This document shows, in pieces, positions 1-8,907 of a DNA stretch of 64,000 nt; the first letter of the stretch is position 1; every line of letters begins with the position of its first letter. Source of the stretch: Diacronema lutheri (taxonomy: Eukaryota; Haptophyta; Pavlovophyceae; Pavlovales; Pavlovaceae). A program made the translations under genes and the position numbers. Location of the stretch: positions 1,798,001 to 1,862,000 of the forward strand of contig JAGTXO010000001.1 of NCBI GenBank assembly GCA_019448385.1, in the 5' to 3' direction. The notes beneath the pieces were generated by a model that saw only the letters and a program-made list of their open reading frames with translations, had not been told where the DNA came from and made no database searches.

Positions 1-1333
1 GCGGCACGCGCGAGGTGCGCGCGGCGCGCGGGTGGTGCGATTGAGCTGCGCGCCGCGTGCGTGGCGCGCGGCGGCGCGCGGCCGCGCGCGCGGCGCTCAC
101 GCTGAAGAGCGCGAGCTCGCCGAAGAAGGGCGACGTGTCCGTGTGCCGGATGAGGCGCACGTGCCGAATGCTCCCGTCCTCGAGTGGCACCTCGATCGCG
201 ATCGCACCGGCGACGATCAAGAAGAAGAGCGTGCCCGCCTGCCCCTTGCTGAACACGTATTCGCCCGAGCGCAGCAGCCGCACTTGGAAGAGGTCGGCCG
301 TCGCGGCCGCGACGCGCTGCGTCGCGCCGTGGAAGAGCGAGAGCGACTGCACCATGCTCGCGCGCCATCGAGCGACGGCGACGCTTGCGAGCGCGCGCGC
401 GGCGGTCTCGAGCTCGCCCGTGAGGCTCAGCCTGCGGACGGGAACCTTGCGGAGCGCGTGCGCGGGCACTCTGAGCGCCCTGCCAGACTCGATGCACTCG
501 ACGGTGTCGGGGCGCCAGTGCACGGGCAAGCGCTCGGCATCAGCCTTGCTCACCGAGTGAGCCGGCTGCGCGCGGGAGAGCGCACTGAGCAGCGCCGACT
601 CGCCGAAGAGCGCGCCGGCGCGCAGCGCGTGCGGTTTTGCGAGCAGCGGGTGGACGGCCACGGCGCCGTCGGCGATGATGAAGACGCACTCAGCCGGCGA
701 GCCAAAGCGGTAGACCGGCTTGTACCGCTCGATGGGCACCAACTCCGACTCGTCGGCGATCGCATCGAGCACGCGAGGCGGCCACGCCCTCGCCTGTGGG
801 CCGACGAACACGTCACAGCTGTTCAGCACGTCGAGCTTCTCGCGGCGCAGCACGGCGACCGCGAGGTGCGCCGAGTGCACGACGCGCGCCAGGTGCGCAT
901 CCGTGGAGGGCTGCTGCGAGGCCATCGGATGGTCCGGCAGCGCAACCGTGTCAAACCAATGGTCGAGGGTGGGAAGCTCGCCCGCGCGCGTGTGCGCCCC
1001 GAGCGAGTTGGCGGATCGCGCGGCCGACGCGCGGGCGGAGCGCGCATCGGCGGCCTGCGGGTCGCCGCCCTCGGTCGGAAGCGCAAGCAAGCGCATATCG
1101 ACCGCAGCGACGGACATTCGCGCATGCTCATCGTCTGCGCCGTTGCTCAAATTTGGCGCAGTTGGCGCCGATGGCGCCGCGGATTCAAGCGAGGCGCGGG
1201 GCGCGCTCGGGCTCACGCCGAGCCGCTTTGCTTTGCTCGTTGCAGCGCAGCCGCGCCAGCGGATGGCCACGAGCGCGTGCGCCGTATGCGCGACGCCGTG
1301 GCCCGATAGGCTCGCGAGGCTGCTCGCCGTCAT
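1..1333 (-). CDS. Tandem cyclic-nucleotide-binding-domain protein, 3' end outside window
   Basis: The minus-strand frame is open from the ATG at 1333 to the left edge, and the protein is incomplete. A Ser/Ala/Pro-rich N-terminus of about 140 residues precedes two CNB-type beta-roll domains. The first (about residues 190-260) has YRFGSPAECVFIIADGAVAV and the phosphate-binding-cassette-like LFGESALL. The second (about 340-410) has GEYVFSKGQAGTLFFLIVAG and FFGELALF. Both cassettes keep the G-E pair of cAMP/cGMP-binding domains; the Arg that contacts the cyclic phosphate is not obvious in either, so ligand binding is uncertain. A donor-like GTGAGC lies at 100-95, after which the translation becomes Arg-rich, so an intron probably starts there. 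The partner could be a PKA regulatory subunit, a PKG or a CNB-only protein; the missing 3' part would decide. Confidence 0.75.
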   Translation of the reverse strand, partial: MTASSLASLSGHGVAHTAHALVAIRWRGCAATSKAKRLGVSPSAPRASLESAAPSAPTAPNLSNGADDEHARMSVAAVDMRLLALPTEGGDPQAADARSARASAARSANSLGAHTRAGELPTLDHWFDTVALPDHPMASQQPSTDAHLARVVHSAHLAVAVLRREKLDVLNSCDVFVGPQARAWPPRVLDAIADESELVPIERYKPVYRFGSPAECVFIIADGAVAVHPLLAKPHALRAGALFGESALLSALSRAQPAHSVSKADAERLPVHWRPDTVECIESGRALRVPAHALRKVPVRRLSLTGELETAARALASVAVARWRASMVQSLSLFHGATQRVAAATADLFQVRLLRSGEYVFSKGQAGTLFFLIVAGAIAIEVPLEDGSIRHVRLIRHTDTSPFFGELALFSVSAARAAARRRAPRTRRAAQSHHPRAARTSRVP

Positions 1334-1375
1334 TGGACCTCACATCATCCAATGACATCCATGGCGCCGAGGGCG

Positions 1376-1921
1376 TCAAGATTTTCTTTGGGCCGTCAGT
1401 TTGATGCATTTTCCTAGACTTTCGGAGTGGAAGGTCTCGAGGGCGTCCCGCTGATGCGACTCCTGCGCATCCCGCTCGGTGCCGTTGCCCGACGCGAACA
1501 TGTTGCGCGAGAGGTCAAACGTATACACCACACCCTTCTCGACGTGGTGCACCGAGCCATCGCTCGCGCCGGGTGGCCAAATTAGCTGCATGCGCGATTT
1601 CCAGCGCCGCGGCGCGGGCGGCGAGCGCCGTTGCGGCCGCAGCCTGCGAGAGCACCCGCTGCGTACCATGCCTTTTGTCCGAGGCATGTGCGGCATGCTG
1701 CACGGCCTCGTTCCCGAGCGTGGCGGCCCAGAGCGCATGTGACTGCGCCCTCTCGGGCAGCATGACAATGTCGCCCAGCCGCTCCCAACGGCGCGGCAGC
1801 GCCTCGGCGAGCGCCTCTGCGTGTGCGCGGGCGAGGCCGTGCGCGACGAGCGCGGCCGACACGCCCACCCAAGCCGGTCGTGCGGGCTGGGGCGCTTGGG
1901 GTGCGACGATTTGACGTCCAT
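1376..1921 (-). pseudogene. TYW2-like (tRNA wybutosine synthesis) N-terminal remnant
   Basis: Two minus-strand frames together resemble the N-terminal half of TYW2, the aminocarboxypropyl transferase that acts on tRNA-Phe position 37. One frame (about 1860-1600) has LPRRWERLGDIVMLPERA. The next (about 1595-1430) has VVYTFDLSRNMFASGNGTE, like the family motif just before the methyltransferase-type domain. They are offset by one base near 1597 with no plausible intron between them. No ATG opens the first frame near its conserved part; the only nearby ATG (1921) is in the other frame. After the SGNGTE motif the reading continues about 30 unrelated residues to a stop at 1376, and the whole catalytic domain is missing. 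The neighbouring CNB gene starts only 43 bp further on. I read this as a decayed gene copy. A one-base assembly error could explain the offset but not the missing catalytic domain. Confidence 0.6.
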
Positions 1922-2031
1922 CGTTGCCGCGCTCGCAAAATCGCCGCCATCGTGCGGAAATGAGAGGCCGGTCGTGGACGCGGCCTCGGTCGTGGACTCG
2001 CACAGCACAACGAGCAACCGCGCACGTGCAG

Positions 2032-3234
2032 ATGGGGCGGGACGCAGGCGCACGCGAGCCGACGGTCTTCTTCTTCAGCCACACGCATGGGCCGTTCGCC
2101 TGCCTGTCGAACTGGTACCCGTGCGCGTTCGTCGACGAGGCCAGCCGCGCCTTTGCCAACTCGGAGCAGGCGATGATGCACGGCAAGGCGGTCCTCTTCG
2201 GCGACGCCGCGACGGCGGAGAAGATTTTGCGCGAGACGGACCCGCGAAAGGTCAAAAGGCTTGGTCGCTGCGTCGCCAACTTTGACGAAGATCTGTGGCG
2301 CGAACGCGCGCGCCCGCTCGTCATGCAGATCCTGACGCACAAGTTTGCGCAGAACGCGCACGAGCAGCACGTGCTGCTTTCGACCGGGAACAAGCTGCTT
2401 GTCGAGGCGTCACCGTACGATGCGATCTGGGGCATCGGTTTGGACGCGGAAAGCGCAAGGCAAACGCCGACGGACAGATGGCCCGGCAGCAATTGGCTCG
2501 GCGAGGTGCTGTGTGCGGTGCGCACGCAGCTCCGTGCCGCAACGGGCGGCGTACAACCGCTCGGGCGGCCGGCCGCCGGCTCCTCGGCCGAGGGCGCCGA
2601 GCGCGAAGCCGTCGCGCCGAGCCACCTACTCGTGCTCGACTTTGAGGCGACGTGCGACGAAGGAGAGCGCCGGTGGGCGCACGAGATCATTGAGTTCCCC
2701 GCCGTGCTGCTCGAGCGCGAGGGCATGCGCACGGTCGACGAGTTCCGCACGATGGTTCGACCGACCGAGGTCGCCGCCCTCCGACCCTTTTGCACGCAGC
2801 TGACGAGCATCACGCAGGAGCAGGTCGACGGCGCGCCCACGCTCGACGAGGTGCTGCCAAGCTTTGAGCGCTGGCTCGAGGGGCACGGCCTCTGCGCCGA
2901 GCAGGTGCTGCCCGTGACGTGCGGCGACTGGGATCTCGGCACGTGCCTGCCCAAGGAGTGCGCACGCAAGGGCTTATCGGCGCCGCGCGTGCTCGGCCGG
3001 TGGTGCAACATCAAGCACGCGTTCAGCGCAGGGATGGGCGTGCCCAAGGCCTTTGGCATGGTGTGGATGTTTGAGCGCCTCAGCTTGCCCCTCATCGGTC
3101 GGCACCATCTCGGCATCGACGACGCGCGCAACATTGCGCGGATCGCGGCCGCGCTCGTCGAGCGGTGCGAGCACCTCGAGCTGACGGCCACGGGCGGCCG
3201 CCGCGCGCACAGACCCATCAATCGCACGGTGTGA
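2032..3234 (+). CDS. NADAR (YbiA-like N-glycosidase) domain fused to ERI1-type DEDDh exonuclease
   Basis: One uninterrupted 400-residue ORF. Residues about 10-160 form a complete NADAR/DUF1768 domain (FFFSHTHGPFACLSNWYP, FANSEQAMMHGKAVLFGD, then WPGSNWLGEVL). Known members hydrolyse N-glycosidic bonds of riboflavin-pathway intermediates, and others act on ADP-ribosylated substrates. Residues about 197-375 are a DEDDh 3'-5' exonuclease of the ERI1/3'hExo group: LLVLDFEATCDEG supplies D-x-E, FCTQLTSITQEQVDGAPTL is typical, CGDWDLG carries the third acid and HHLGIDDARN carries His plus the last Asp. ERI1 enzymes trim histone mRNA ends, 5.8S rRNA and small RNAs. No SAP domain is seen. The start at 2032 sits just before the NADAR fold; the ORF is open further upstream but without family similarity. 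The 3' end overlaps the convergent methyltransferase gene by 17 bp. The domain identities are firm; the joint function is unknown. Confidence 0.88.
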   Translation: MGRDAGAREPTVFFFSHTHGPFACLSNWYPCAFVDEASRAFANSEQAMMHGKAVLFGDAATAEKILRETDPRKVKRLGRCVANFDEDLWRERARPLVMQILTHKFAQNAHEQHVLLSTGNKLLVEASPYDAIWGIGLDAESARQTPTDRWPGSNWLGEVLCAVRTQLRAATGGVQPLGRPAAGSSAEGAEREAVAPSHLLVLDFEATCDEGERRWAHEIIEFPAVLLEREGMRTVDEFRTMVRPTEVAALRPFCTQLTSITQEQVDGAPTLDEVLPSFERWLEGHGLCAEQVLPVTCGDWDLGTCLPKECARKGLSAPRVLGRWCNIKHAFSAGMGVPKAFGMVWMFERLSLPLIGRHHLGIDDARNIARIAAALVERCEHLELTATGGRRAHRPINRTV

Positions 3235-4321
3235 TGCGGAGGAGCGAGACATCGCTCGGGTCGCAGAGCCGCCACAGCTGCGCGCGCTCCCGCGCATCCG
3301 AATCCGACTCGGCACGCGGGGGGCCGATGGCCTCCTCAATGCCCTGCAGCCCGTGCCGCACGAGTGCCGCCTCAAAAGCGCGCAAGGTTTCCTCGCTGCG
3401 CCGCTTGCTCGCGACAAGCGCGATCGCCGACGGGCGGGCGAGCAGCGCGCGGATCGTTCGCGCCAGCCCATCGAGCAGCTCCTCGCTGTACACGCAGTCA
3501 GCCGCGACGACGACGTCGGGTGTGACGGCCGCGAGCGCAGTCGCCGATGCGAGGGTCGGCTCGGTCCAGTCGAGGGTGGCGCAGCACACGGTTGGCAAGC
3601 CCTGGTCCCGCCGCAGCGCGACGTGCGCCGCGACGCCGTGGGCTGCGAGCACGGGCACGTCGGCGCCGCCGTTGCGCCGCAGGTTTGCGCGCAGGTTGTC
3701 GACGGTCGCACCATACACGTCCGTGGCCACCAGCTCGCTCGCCGCGCACTCGCGCGCGAGCAGGCACGAGAGCAGGCCGCAGCCTGAGCCGAGCTCGACG
3801 ACGCAGCGCGACGCAAAGAGCTCGGGCCGTGCGAGAGCGTAGAATGCGAGCCACGCGCCCGCGTCCCACACGCAGCAGCCAGTCTCCGCGCCCGCGCCCC
3901 AAGCGTCCGCCGCGCGCAGCACGATGGGCGCCGCGTCGGCGCCCACGTGAAAATGCAGGTAGGCGAGCTCTGGCGCCGCCACGAGCGGCGTCATAGGGAG
4001 CGTCGCGCACATGCGCAGCAGGCGCTCGTCAATCTCCTCGACGTCGCTTTCGTCCTCGAGCGCGCGCACAAGGAGCCTAACGAAGCGCGATGTGCGGCGG
4101 CTGTTGGGCGGGAACTCGCGCGCTGGCGCGCAGGCCAGCACGCCGTCCACCACGGCGGCTTGCGCTGCGGCAAGAGGCCACTCTGGGAGCGCGCGCGCGA
4201 GCAACACCAGCTCGTCACATGCAGCCTGACCTTGGAGGTACGTCGCGCGCAGGCGTTCGACGGCGCCGTGCGGGTCAGGCGCGACGCTCGTGAACGCGGA
4301 CGTGCGCGTCCGCGCGTTCAT
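3218..4321 (-). CDS. Class I protein-lysine methyltransferase, EEF2KMT/FAM86-like
   Basis: A single-exon ORF of 367 residues. The central part reads ETGCCVWDAGAWLAFYAL, then VVELGSGCGLLSCLLA (SAM-binding motif I) and ATDVYG, followed by the family-16 style DVVVAADCVYS post-II loop. This order is that of the METTL21/FAM86 protein-lysine methyltransferases. The alpha-helical N-terminal third resembles FAM86/EEF2KMT, whose known substrate is a lysine of elongation factor 2; the substrate here is inference. Length is close to human EEF2KMT (330 residues). The first ATG of the frame (4321) is used and gives a full N-terminal domain. The stop at 3218 lies inside the last codons of the convergent NADAR-ERI1 gene, so the two mature transcripts must overlap. 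Other METTL21-type methyltransferases remain possible. Confidence 0.78.
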   Translation of the reverse strand: MNARTRTSAFTSVAPDPHGAVERLRATYLQGQAACDELVLLARALPEWPLAAAQAAVVDGVLACAPAREFPPNSRRTSRFVRLLVRALEDESDVEEIDERLLRMCATLPMTPLVAAPELAYLHFHVGADAAPIVLRAADAWGAGAETGCCVWDAGAWLAFYALARPELFASRCVVELGSGCGLLSCLLARECAASELVATDVYGATVDNLRANLRRNGGADVPVLAAHGVAAHVALRRDQGLPTVCCATLDWTEPTLASATALAAVTPDVVVAADCVYSEELLDGLARTIRALLARPSAIALVASKRRSEETLRAFEAALVRHGLQGIEEAIGPPRAESDSDARERAQLWRLCDPSDVSLLRITPCD

Positions 4322-4415
4322 AACGTCATACTCGTACTAAGCACGTGCCGCCAATCTTCATCTTGTTTTTGTCGCCTCTTGCGCAGTCGAAGACCCGAGA
4401 CGGACGGCGGAAGGC

Positions 4416-5216
4416 ATGAGCCCGGGTCGGCGCTTGGCGGTGGTGACCGGCGGGAACAAAGGGATCGGCTACTACATCGCCGCGCAGCTGCTCGCCGCAG
4501 GGCATGACGTCATTATCGGCTGCCGTTCCGCCGAGCGCGGCGAGGCCGCGGCGGCGGCGCTTGGTGCCGGCTGTACCGCCGCGCGCCTCGACATTTCCGA
4601 CTCCAGCTCCATCGCCCAGTTTGTCGAGGCCATGCACACGCAGCACCCGGCTCTGCACGTCCTCGTCAACAATGCGGGAATTGCCTTCAAGAGCTCGGAC
4701 ACCACGCCCTTTGCCAAGCAGACGCGGACGACGCTGAGGACGAACTACGAGGGCACCGTAGAGATCACGGCCGCGCTCCTCCCGCTCCTGCGCAAGGCCG
4801 ACAACCCGCGCATCGTCAGCGTGGCGAGCATGGCGGGCAAGCTGAAGCAGCTGAGCCCCGAGCTCCAGCATGCCTTTGCCTCCGAGAGCCTGACGCTCCC
4901 CAAGCTCAACGAGCTCGTCGCCCAATTCGAAGCCGACGTCGACGCGGGCAAGCATCGCGAGCGCGGGTGGAGCAACTCAAATTACGGCCTCAGCAAGCTC
5001 GCGGTCATCGCGTTTACGAAGGTGCTCGCGAGGGACGAGTCAAGCATCCTCGTCAACGCGTGCTGCCCGGGCTACTGCGATACTGACATGACGTCGCACA
5101 ACGGGCCTCGTCCGGCCGAGGTGGGCGCGCGCACGGCAGTCGCGCTCGCGCTGCTCCCGAGCGGGAGCAGCGTGACGGGCCAGTTTTGGGAGAACGAGCA
5201 GCCGTCGACTTGGTGA
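4416..5216 (+). CDS. Carbonyl reductase, short-chain dehydrogenase/reductase (CBR1-like)
   Basis: A 266-residue classical SDR without introns. AVVTGGNKGIGYYIA at residues about 9-23 is the NADPH-binding glycine motif, with the NKGIG form typical of CBR1. CRSAERG follows as the cofactor-specificity loop, then LDISD and LVNNAGIAF (about residues 87-95). VSVASMAG carries the catalytic Ser, and the YGLSKLAV segment carries the Tyr-x-x-x-Lys pair. A roughly 40-residue insertion between Ser and Tyr (LQHAFASESLTLPKLNELV) matches the CBR1 subfamily rather than plain SDRs, and NACCPGYCDTDM is the usual C-terminal loop. CBR1 enzymes reduce quinones and reactive carbonyls in the cytosol; the substrate here is not predictable. 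No targeting peptide is visible. A strong hairpin lies 24 bp past the stop. Confidence 0.9.
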   Translation: MSPGRRLAVVTGGNKGIGYYIAAQLLAAGHDVIIGCRSAERGEAAAAALGAGCTAARLDISDSSSIAQFVEAMHTQHPALHVLVNNAGIAFKSSDTTPFAKQTRTTLRTNYEGTVEITAALLPLLRKADNPRIVSVASMAGKLKQLSPELQHAFASESLTLPKLNELVAQFEADVDAGKHRERGWSNSNYGLSKLAVIAFTKVLARDESSILVNACCPGYCDTDMTSHNGPRPAEVGARTAVALALLPSGSSVTGQFWENEQPSTW

Positions 5217-5525
5217 GTCACGCGCGTATCGTGCGACGTGCGCAAGCAGCACTACACCCTCGCGCCATGGTGCAGTGCTGCTTGCGCGCGCACGTGAGCA
5301 AAGGGCACTGGTGCAGCCCGCCCGTGCGGCCCGCGCGGCCGAAAGTGCATGCTCAGGACGGAGACCACAGACATGCCAGGCGCATTGGGCTGATGGAGGT
5401 ACGCCACGCACGACGCGAGTGGGACAGAGAGATGACTCCGTGCCACTGATGAGATCACTCCCGAGGGCATCCACCCGACCGCCAGCCAGCCGAGCCTCCA
5501 TGGCCGTTTCGCGCTCTCGACAAGG
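5217..5525. other. Intergenic region containing an 18-bp-stem hairpin
   Basis: This 309-bp gap separates the carbonyl reductase stop from the ankyrin gene start. It contains a near-perfect hairpin: 14-bp arms at 5240-5253 and 5274-5287 are exact reverse complements, and inside them CACC (5255-5258) can pair with GGTG (5269-5272). No other gene, tRNA or long repeat was found. The hairpin could belong to the 3' UTR of the reductase or act as a terminator; the remaining part is probably the ankyrin gene's promoter and 5' UTR. Confidence 0.6.
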
Positions 5526-6620
5526 ATGGCGGCGCTGGTTGAATCGCGCACGACGGCCGAGGCGCGCCGCGCGCTCGCGTTCGCCGTTGGGCGCGTGGCT
5601 GCGACGGGTGCAAGCGTGGGTGTGATCTGTGGGGCGGATATCGAAGCCGGCGAGGTCAACAGGTGGCGCGAGCTCGCGTTCGAACTGGCGCGCTGCGAGG
5701 ACGGCAGGGTCGGGGTGCACGTGCCGCGCGCACGCGGCGGGGACGTGCGCGTGGTCGAGTTCGCTCCACGCGCGCGGCGCGCGAGCTCTCCGTCGCGCGC
5801 GCTGACCGAGCTGTATGTGGACTGCCGCCGTGGCGCCATCGCGAGCGTTCGACACCTCTTGGAGAGCGGCGTACCTGCCGACGAGTGCGTGAACGCCGAC
5901 GGCCTCACGCCGTTGCACGCGGCCGCCCGAGGTGGGCACGCGCGCGTCGCGCGGCTGCTGCTCGAGTACGGTGCACAGCCAGAGCGTGCCGATGCTCGCG
6001 GCGGAACGCCCCTCATGCGCGCGTGCCGGCACGGCCATGCGGACGTGGCCTCCATGCTGCTGGACGCTGGCGCGCACGCGGACCATGCGTCTCGCGGCGG
6101 GTACACGGCGCTCATGCTCGGCGCGCGCGGTGGTCACGACGACGTGGTGCGGCTGCTCTGCGAGCGCAGCGCTGACGTGCACGCGATGGCGCTCGGTGGC
6201 GCGACCGCGCGCTCGCTCGCAGCCGAGGGCGGCCATTTCTCACTTGGGCTGCTGCTGCGCGCGCATGGCGCAGCCGGTGCTGCGCGAGTGGGCTCGCCGC
6301 CGCGCGCAGCCGCGTTCCAGCACGCGTGGTGGTACGGCCCGCTGATTGAGGGCACGCGAGTCGCCGAGCGCGTCGCGCCCGCACGCCCTCCCCGCGCGCT
6401 GCCTCCGCCCGCGGACGCAGCGGCATTTGCACAGCGCCTCATCGACCGCGCGGCGCGTGACGAGGGCCTGCCACACGACGGTGGCCGATGGCGCACGCGA
6501 CGGGTGGGCGACGTGCTCGCCTCGGAGCAGGCGGGTGCTCGACTCGGCAGCGCGCGGCACGCAACCGCGGCCTTCGCCGAGGCACACAGGAGGGTGGCAG
6601 GCCATCCCATGCCAATCTAG
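5526..6620 (+). CDS. Ankyrin-repeat protein
   Basis: A 364-residue single ORF. Residues about 95-230 hold four or five consecutive ankyrin repeats: LTELYVDCRRGAIASVRHLL, then NADGLTPLHAAARGGHARVA, then ARGGTPLMRACRHGHADVAS, then RGGYTALMLGARGGHDDVVR and a weaker ALGGATARSLAAEGGHFSLG. The first 90 residues and the last 130 (Ala/Pro/Arg-rich) match nothing I recognise, and there is no transmembrane segment, zinc finger, SOCS box or kinase domain to give a function. Ankyrin repeats mediate protein binding. The ATG at 5526 directly precedes the coding-like sequence. The convergent F-box/LRR gene ends only 13 bp after the stop. Confidence 0.85.
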   Translation: MAALVESRTTAEARRALAFAVGRVAATGASVGVICGADIEAGEVNRWRELAFELARCEDGRVGVHVPRARGGDVRVVEFAPRARRASSPSRALTELYVDCRRGAIASVRHLLESGVPADECVNADGLTPLHAAARGGHARVARLLLEYGAQPERADARGGTPLMRACRHGHADVASMLLDAGAHADHASRGGYTALMLGARGGHDDVVRLLCERSADVHAMALGGATARSLAAEGGHFSLGLLLRAHGAAGAARVGSPPRAAAFQHAWWYGPLIEGTRVAERVAPARPPRALPPPADAAAFAQRLIDRAARDEGLPHDGGRWRTRRVGDVLASEQAGARLGSARHATAAFAEAHRRVAGHPMPI

Positions 6621-6633
6621 CCTCTTCCCACTG

Positions 6634-8767
6634 TCAGCGCCGGACCTGCACGTTGACGCACGCTTCTTGCACGGCCTCGACGGCCGCGGTCGTCACGCGC
6701 TCGCAAAAGCGAAGGTTGATCGAGCGCAAGCCCGGGCAGTGCTCGGCAATCGCCATCAATCCAACGTCTGTTATCTCGTGCTTGCACCCGCCAAGATCGA
6801 GAGACTGCAGGTGTGGGCATGACTGCGCGGTGTGCAGCGTGGCGCGTGCGGGCGCGCGGCACGCACACGTCAGCGCAAACGAGGGCGGCGGCGCGCGCTG
6901 GCGTGCGGCGTGCTGTCGAGCTGGCGGCGGCGGCGCGCGCGCGCGCTCACCTGCGCCACGGCCTCGAGCGACGCATCGGTGAGCCGCAGGCAGCCGCCGA
7001 TATCGAGGGAGCTGAGCGAGCGGCAGCCGGCGGCGAGCGCACGCAGCCCCGCATCAGTCAGCGCGTCGCAGTAGCCCAAGTTGACGCAGCTCAGCTCCTC
7101 ACAGCTCTCGGCGAGCGCAACGAGCGCCGCATCGGAGATCTCGCACCAGCCCAGGTCAAGCGTGCGCAGCCGACGGCAGTTGTGCGCGAGCGCGATGATG
7201 GCCGCGTCGGTGATGCGCCCCGCGCGCTCGAGGTGCAGCGCGCGCATCTGCGGGCAGTGCTGCGCGACCGACAGGATCGCGACGCCAGACACCTTGGAGC
7301 ACAGCCTGGCCGCGTGGCGCGCACGGGACGGGGGCAGTGCGCGCGTGCGATGGATCGGCGATGTGCGTATGCGCCGTCACGGGCACAGCCGGCGCGGCGC
7401 GCGCGCGACTCCATGCGCACGCGGTGTGCGGCGGCGTGCGCACCTGACGTCGAGGGAGCGCAAATTTGGGCAAGCCGCCGCAATTGTCTGGATGCCAGCG
7501 TCCGACACCTAAAGAAGGGGGGAGGGCGGAGGGGGGATTCGGGCGCGCGGAGGAATGCGGTGAGCGCGACGGCGCGCGTGCACGCCCCGAACATCCGCGA
7601 GCGCGGCGCTGCGCGCGCGCGAGTGTGCACGCGGGCGCGGTGGCCTCGCCGCCTGCATCCCTGCCTGCGCACCTGCGAGCAGACCCACAAATTGACGGAC
7701 TCGAGACGGACACAGTTCTGTGCGAGCGCGTAGAGCGCACAGTCGGTGATGTCGCTGTAGCCCTCGAGGTCCACGTCGCGCAGCTCGGGGCAAGCCGCCG
7801 CGATCGTCGAGATGCCCGCGTCCGTGACCGAGCCGCAGCGCGAGATGTCGAGCGACGCGAGCGACGCGCAGCGCATTGCGAGGAAGCGCAACGCTACGTC
7901 GCCGACCGAGCGGCACAGGCGGAGCGAGAGCGAGCGGAGGCGCGGGTGCGCGGCGGCGATCGCGCCGACGCCTGCGTCCGTCACCAGCGTGCACCCGCCC
8001 ATGTTGAGCGACGTGAGCGGCGCGGAGCCCGCGGCGACCGCCCATGCGCTCACCTCACGGCAGCCCTCGATGGAGAGCGTCGCGAGCCGCCGGCAGCCGG
8101 TCGTGACGGCGCTCACGCCGGCGTCGGAGAGACGGCCGCAGCCCGAGACGTCGAGCGACTCGAGCAGCGTGCACTTCTTCGAGAGCACGAGCAGCGCGTT
8201 GTCCGAAAGGTCGCACCAGCCGAGGCAGAGCGACGTGAGCCCGCCGCACCCGTCGCCAAGCCGGCGGATGCCGTCGTTGGTGATGTCGCGGCAGCCGAGG
8301 ACGTTAAGGATGCGGAGGCCCGGCGTCTCGAGCGCAAGCATCGCGATCGCGTCGTCCGTCACGTTATCGCACTGCGTCAGATCGAGGCTGGTCAGCGCCG
8401 GGTTGAGCTGCGCGGCCGCGTGCACCTGCGCGTCCGTCACGGTCGGCCCGTGCAGCCGAAGTGACGAGATGCTCGGGAAGCGGCGCGACAGCTGCGCGAG
8501 CGCGTGCTCGAGCGGCACATGGCCGAGCGAGACGTTCGACACTGCAATCGAGTCGACGCACGCCGCAAACGTCCGCCGCCAGTCCGAGCAGACGCACGAC
8601 GCGGCGAGGAGGGCGCGCAGCGGCAGGAACGTGGCGAGGTGCGCGATCGCGTCCGCGTCGAGGAGGCCAATGTTGGCGCGCTTTATGACGTCGTCGCACT
8701 CCATCGAGTCGTGCTGATCGACCGATACCTCCGTCGGCGCGCCCGACATTGCGTCCCACTCCCTCAT
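6634..8767 (-). CDS. F-box/leucine-rich-repeat protein (FBXL2/20 type), 4 exons
   Basis: Spliced minus-strand gene with exons 8767-7673, 7508-7444, 7305-6951 and 6822-6634, giving about 567 residues. Donors are GTGCGC, GTGCGC and GTGAGC, and frames join exactly at each. Near the N-terminus LLDADAIAHLATFLPLRALL is an F-box, the SKP1-binding part of SCF ubiquitin ligases. The rest is about 17 cysteine-containing LRRs, for example LTSLDLTQCDNVTDDAIAML and LRTLDLGWCEISDAALVAL. The tiny 65-bp exon 2 restores one LRR (VSDAGIQTIAAACPNLRSLD), which confirms the splicing. The last exon ends with an AVEAVQEACVNVQVRR tail. The ATG at 8767 is preferred; 8749 is an alternative. The protein probably selects substrates for ubiquitination, substrates unknown. 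The divergent STOML2 gene starts 140 bp upstream. Confidence 0.9.
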
Positions 8768-8907
8768 CAGCCCCGGCGCTCTCCTCCTCCGTGTGTGGGT
8801 AGGTTGGGACGCGGCTCCCCTCCCCCGGTCCCCTTCAAAAACGCCCCTCGTCAAAGCCATCGCGCGGCGGAAGACCCTCGTGCGCCCTCGAGCGCGCGCC
8901 GGGCGCG

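Follow-up and report, generated by a model that had tools for sequence, protein, structure and literature searches.

Gene KFE25_009240 of the haptophyte Diacronema lutheri lies at positions 2032-3234 of the forward strand in the 64,000-nucleotide stretch of contig JAGTXO010000001.1 analysed here (the window). Its single open frame of 400 amino acids (aa), annotated as shorter in the deposited record, joins an N-terminal NADAR domain to an ERI1-type 3'-5' exonuclease domain. We propose, with a probability of roughly 0.5, that the protein couples guanosine de-ADP-ribosylation with 3'-5' RNA degradation, and would thus act as a two-step nucleic-acid clean-up enzyme. This proposal is based on the completeness of both domains, the family-wide retention of their main active-site residues, the joining of the two domains on more than one occasion, and the existence of related ERI1 domains joined to other ADP-ribose enzymes. 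The recurrence of the pairing in other protists suggests a system for cleaning up ADP-ribosylated RNA. While the NADAR and ERI1 families are already known, their pairing and its recurrence are new.

Both catalytic domains are complete

A Pfam scan, run on a 436-aa form of the protein beginning at TTG 1924, matched NADAR (PF08719) over the full profile (1-163/163; E 4.3e-47; 160.8 bits, the gathering score being 35.1) and RNase_T (PF00929) over nearly all of it (1-163/164; E 7.1e-22). With the main catalytic residues also present, the claim of the initial annotation that both domains are complete in one 400-residue frame is borne out.

The exonuclease domain is of the ERI1/ERI3 DEDDh type and spans residues 195-382 (2614-3177, forward strand). 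It is nearest to ERI1/2/3 and carries all five DEDDh residues, which we take to be D203, E205, D301, H359 and D364 from the numbering of human ERI1 combined with the alignment. ERI1 in the strict sense (3'hExo) has an N-terminal SAP domain for stem-loop binding; no such domain was found here, Pfam having reported NADAR and RNase_T only at an E limit of 10, with filters that drop most matches above about 0.1. Among sequences in the PDB, ERI1 exoribonuclease 3 (7k05) was matched over residues 198-378 (E 7.5e-39), and the domain is a predicted RNA 3'-5' exonuclease.

The NADAR domain, delimited by the domain search, covers residues 10-170 (2059-2541, forward strand), with a PDB sequence match to an oomycete NADAR (8bau) over residues 10-142 (E 1.4e-24). 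In an alignment to the oomycete protein, where chain numbering equals that of the paper (PMC11543638) plus 2, residues E45, K52, K75, R79, W89, E125, D130 and W133 correspond to E43, K50, K75, R79, W89, E125, D130 and W133 of the oomycete protein. The remaining three of the 11 ADP-ribose-site residues differ (Y84 to F, D86 to E and R93 to A); the roles of these site residues are taken from the description of the oomycete complex in PMC11543638. Throughout the fused family, both the ADP-ribose-site residues of NADAR and the DEDDh residues of the exonuclease are nearly invariant. The NADAR domain most probably takes guanosine ADP-ribose in RNA or single-stranded DNA as its substrate.

The predicted structure of the protein has a mean predicted local distance difference test score (pLDDT) of 90.9, and matches both the ADP-ribose-bound NADAR 8bau and human ERI3. 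Between the domains, model confidence is low in the linker at residues 171-194 (2542-2613, forward strand), where the mean pLDDT is 59 for residues 171-180 and 45 for residues 181-190, and this segment is probably disordered.

The unspliced frame is most likely the real one

Open reading frame analysis shows that the frame at 2032-3234 runs without interruption for 400 aa and a stop codon. It is coding-like, since its guanine-plus-cytosine (GC) content at the three codon positions (0.68/0.50/0.87) matches the expectation for a coding frame. The deposited protein (P0002) has 350 aa and is identical to the window frame up to residue 344, after which it reads GASTSS. A 100-bp GT..AG intron at 3063-3162 of the forward strand accounts for this form, and its removal would delete motif III (H359, D364) and shift the frame. 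The interval nevertheless retains coding periodicity (codon-position GC 0.70/0.42/0.88) and codes for exonuclease motif III, of which a loose pattern, H-x-G-[ILV]-[DW]-D, is present in 117 of the 118 ERI homologues compared. The gene most likely runs through unspliced, therefore, and the intron is probably an annotation error or, failing that, belongs to a splice form that truncates the protein. This agrees with the earlier description of the gene as intron-free, and on the same evidence the idea that the deposited intron marks a broken exonuclease was rejected.

The shorter, spliced deposited model could also be read as a trace of two genes merged by the assembly or by read-through of an intron or stop codon, the former being a case that the initial annotation had itself raised. 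Such an artefact is very improbable. The gene lies on a contig of 3.04 Mb in a PacBio assembly of theoretical x368 coverage and 103 contigs (PMC8379373), and proteins with both domains also come from transcriptome collections (P0008, P0009, P0018 and P0020), so that an assembly join is unlikely. Together with the coding periodicity of the one open frame and the 25 further homologues of the same architecture among the matches listed (below), these observations largely refute a merger of two genes.

The fusion recurs among protists

The homologue search matched 346 proteins, of which 120 were listed, and domain composition was counted by Pfam column over the listed 120. NADAR and RNase_T occur together in 26 of these, one of which (P0002) is the window gene; RNase_T stands alone in 84, NADAR alone in one, and RNase_T is combined with another partner in nine. 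These nine comprise one fusion each to KptA/Tpt1 plus FHA, DUF4291, microbial PARG and TatD, and five to a RanBP zinc ribbon. In a domain search of 265 proteins, 27 had both NADAR and RNase_T, the window gene being counted twice (P0001 and P0002). Among the matches listed, the organisms named in the fused family are D. lutheri and two dinoflagellates, Effrenium voratum and Cladocopium goreaui; the remaining fusions are labelled haptophyte-type or dinoflagellate-type by tree position, the groups having been named after the matches and trees were inspected. The initial annotation knew of no described protein with this architecture. No description of it was found in the openly licensed literature searched, but with 26 of the 120 listed matches it is not unique to this gene.

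Several members depart from the common form. P0007 and P0010 carry a tandem NADAR pair, P0059 combines a YbiA-type NADAR with ERI1, P0094 is apparently a cut-off relative of P0059, and the NADAR of P0031 is weak (29.8 bits against the gathering score of 35.1). Many of the metagenome proteins that show an exonuclease only may be fragments, which would reduce the count of independent fusions. Separately, P0012, P0013 (from Pelomyxa schiedti) and P0016 each contain two ERI1-type exonuclease domains and lack NADAR.

A viral origin was considered and rejected, as patterns from P0001 had no match in a viral contig collection. In addition, the haptophyte-type alignment matched 50 stretches, none of them a relative; none of the 681 phage records with a match spans 80% of the query; and a viral model search gave no clear fusion in the best 50 of 696 matches.

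Tree tests support at least two separate joinings

Trees were built for each domain. The NADAR tree has 72 rows, drawn from 27 fused and 145 non-fused NADAR proteins, and omits P0002, P0031 (for its weak NADAR and very long branch) and domains shorter than 106 aa, including P0094. The exonuclease tree has 82 rows from 120 ERI-bearing proteins, and omits P0002 and domains shorter than 141 aa.

On the NADAR tree, P0059 falls within the YbiA-type clade (100/100), and a single clade for all 26 fused rows is rejected by the approximately unbiased (AU) test (p-AU 2.7e-6, or 3.7e-54 if P0060, the lone NADAR, may join the clade). On the exonuclease tree, a single clade of all fusions is likewise rejected (p 2e-12, P0051 and P0104, both probably fragments, being forced outside), as are the union of haptophyte-type and dinoflagellate-type fusions (p 1.6e-14, with P0051 and P0104 free to fall inside and P0011 excluded) and that of haptophyte-type fusions with P0059/P0094 (p 6e-4). 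The dinoflagellate-type rows and P0104 form one clade there (100/97). From the tests on both trees and the clear position of P0059 on the NADAR tree, there is good support for at least two separate NADAR-ERI1 joinings, and their number is likely to be three or higher. Alternatively, part of the pattern may reflect a single old fusion followed by repeated loss or replacement of NADAR.

The exonuclease tree also places fusions to other partners. P0115, which carries PARG, and P0116 are sister to the dinoflagellate-type NADAR fusions (96/77), and P0025 (KptA), P0046 (DUF4291) and the weak NADAR fusion P0031 share one starred clade. P0011 is a case of its own, its NADAR grouping with the dinoflagellate-type fusions and its exonuclease elsewhere, possibly through an extra joining or a domain swap.

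A proposed two-step mechanism and its alternatives

In the first of the two proposed steps, the N-terminal NADAR domain would cleave ADP-ribose from guanosine bases in single-stranded RNA, and possibly also in single-stranded DNA; in the second, the tethered DEDDh domain would work inwards from the 3' end, trimming or degrading the strand. Unless NADAR removed it first, a bulky base adduct would stall the exonuclease, and the flexible linker would allow both active sites to work on one strand. In published assays, the NADARs tested are active on the guanosine base of modified RNA oligonucleotides and inactive on ADP-ribosylated phosphate ends (PMC11833690), and those tested on uracil ADP-ribose are reported as inactive or nearly so (PMC13036486). 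The idea of removing a modification and then degrading the strand, put forward in the initial annotation, fits the recurrent fusions and the union of ERI1 with other ADP-ribose enzymes, but guanosine ADP-ribose seems a likelier target than a damaged base. A role in cleaning up 3' ends is conjectural and sits poorly with the inactivity of the tested NADARs on ADP-ribosylated phosphate ends.

The two activities might also operate in the reverse order, the exonuclease acting first and NADAR then recycling ADP-ribosylated mononucleotides, soluble ADP-ribose or NAD-derived products. A NADAR does bind free ADP-ribose (8bau), and NADAR action has been proposed on small ADP-ribose derivatives from RNA processing (PMC9503650). 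Although the present data do not distinguish the two orders, salvage of this kind seems unlikely to us, as the tested NADARs work directly on RNA oligonucleotides.

The linkers bear on a further possibility. Of the 15 dinoflagellate-type linkers, 14 contain a basic-tryptophan motif, [KR]-x(0-2)-[KR]-W, whereas 5000 shuffles within the linkers produced it in 0.75 linkers on average and in 5 at most, although the shuffles overstate the independence of these related sequences and the pattern was chosen post hoc from the linkers. In the fifteenth, P0019, F replaces the motif W. A similar motif precedes the exonuclease domain of P0115 and of P0116; P0104 has none. The motif resembles U2AF ligand motifs (ULMs). 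A ULM-like cyclic peptide with KSRWDE is bound by the U2AF homology motif (UHM) domain of SPF45 (PMC7648758). These features would suit an RNA-maturation factor, in which ERI1 would trim one of the stable RNAs (rRNA, snRNA, histone or spliced-leader RNA), with NADAR serving mainly for recognition or regulation, as may also hold for the nematode protein SNA-3. Yet the motif is present in neither the window protein nor its six nearest fused relatives, it could be a nuclear localisation signal, and the near-full conservation of the NADAR catalytic residues points to catalysis; a role in maturation is hence a doubtful explanation.

Returning to coupled de-ADP-ribosylation and degradation, several observations weigh against it or against its generality. 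The predicted template modelling score of the model (0.66) leaves the domain orientation uninformative. The protein passes the equivalog cut-off of NCBIfam TIGR02464, 'riboflavin biosynthesis intermediates N-glycosidase' (143.8 bits against 73.7), and another N-glycosidic substrate is therefore possible. The union of haptophyte-type and dinoflagellate-type fusions is not rejected on the NADAR tree (p-AU 0.10, or 0.30 with P0060), nor is that of dinoflagellate-type fusions with P0059/P0094 on the exonuclease tree (p-AU 0.097). Among the matches listed, the KptA, PARG and DUF4291 fusions are represented by one protein cluster each, and seven of the nine non-NADAR partners (five RanBP zinc ribbons, one TatD and one DUF4291) have no known ADP-ribose role; for DUF4291 as an ADP-ribosyltransferase, there was no PDB relative with a meaningful E-value and no paper in the literature searched. 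Finally, tblastn with NADAR, KptA, FHA, PARG and DUF4291 queries found none nearby at four bacterial loci with ERI-like genes, which argues against a general bacterial link, the loci being a small sample of two Nannocystis, one Myxococcales metagenome-assembled genome and one Actinomadura.

The TIGR02464 match is not taken as fixing the NADAR substrate. It would agree with a YbiA-type N-glycosidase for riboflavin-pathway intermediates in a fusion where the nuclease does not share its substrate, a role in riboflavin intermediates being known for bacterial and plant NADARs (PMC11543638). We regard this as improbable: of the relatives with a solved structure, the closest is the oomycete NADAR, which has been studied as a guanine-ADP-ribose hydrolase, and it is hard to see, unless the two domains share a substrate, why NADAR should repeatedly have been joined to one type of nuclease while both sites stayed intact.

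More tentatively, protists may repeatedly have joined ERI1-type exonucleases to several kinds of ADP-ribose enzyme, making such nucleases the partner that recurrently degrades ADP-ribosylated RNA. The result would be a dedicated pathway that erases the mark and destroys the RNA, with a possible antiviral or anti-toxin function and, among dinoflagellates, a possible tie to the spliceosome; on balance we would not yet favour so broad a scheme. The KptA (P0025) and PARG (P0115) fusions, both of which clearly pass the Pfam cut-offs, weigh most here because the window query contains neither domain. In such a pathway, NADAR would act on guanosine bases, PARG on 2'-OH and phosphate marks, and KptA/Tpt1 as a transferase. 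PARG removes 2'-OH ADP-ribose, and bacterial PARG also 5'-phosphate ADP-ribose (PMC11833690); going by the published assays, the RNA marks handled by NADAR and PARG are complementary.

Genomic surroundings in D. lutheri

An in-frame upstream ATG at 1960 could add an arginine-rich extension of 24 residues (1960-2031, forward strand), which is possibly a targeting peptide. The divergent neighbour at 1518-1949 (reverse strand) has a weak match to the TYW2 N-terminus (22.2 bits, below the cut-off of 27.7), and may be a tRNA wybutosine enzyme. On the other side, a convergent gene of the lysine methyltransferase type (PF10294) lies at 3221-4321 (reverse strand), and its frame has about 17 bases in common with the fusion gene at the latter's 3' end. 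D. lutheri has two further ERI-like genes, at G000:C4:612066-612695 (L002) and G000:C5:172486-173082 (L003), whose open frames of 375 and 348 aa contained RNase_T only in the domain search.

Comparison with known systems

The roles of eukaryotic NADARs, and of those outside DarT operons, have been stated to be unclear (PMC11125620). That NADAR has been fused naturally, and more than once, to an RNA exonuclease suggests that its target in these protists is nucleic acids and not metabolites, and a single protein now offers a direct test of the link between NADAR and nucleic acids. The fusion is also relevant to the way in which ADP-ribosylated RNA is broken down, given that RNA with a 5' ADP-ribose cap withstands the exonuclease XRN1 (PMC9458441).

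Each half of the protein has close counterparts. The Phytophthora nicotianae NADAR (8bau), a guanine-ADP-ribose hydrolase, is a stand-alone domain, whereas that of the window protein is fused; conversely, the human ERI3 and ERI1 exoribonucleases (7k05, 7lpz, 1w0h and 4l8r) lack NADAR. YbiA and the plant riboflavin NADARs share the NADAR domain with the window protein, which passes their family cut-off, but their fusion partners are presumably riboflavin enzymes, in contrast to the 3'-5' exonuclease found here. Most NADARs are apparently free-standing, and those of plants are often fused to other domains (PMC11543638). NADAR domains are also found in SNA-3, a nematode trans-splicing and RNA-processing protein (PMC9303266); it has three of them, is described as nematode-specific, and the main text of that paper never uses the word 'exonuclease'. 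A Pfam scan (E up to 0.01) of six frames near the fusion gene, within 5-8860, found no DarT. In the DarT1-NADAR toxin-antitoxin system, NADAR reverses the ADP-ribosylation of guanosine (PMC11543638), while in the window protein the partner of NADAR is a nuclease instead.
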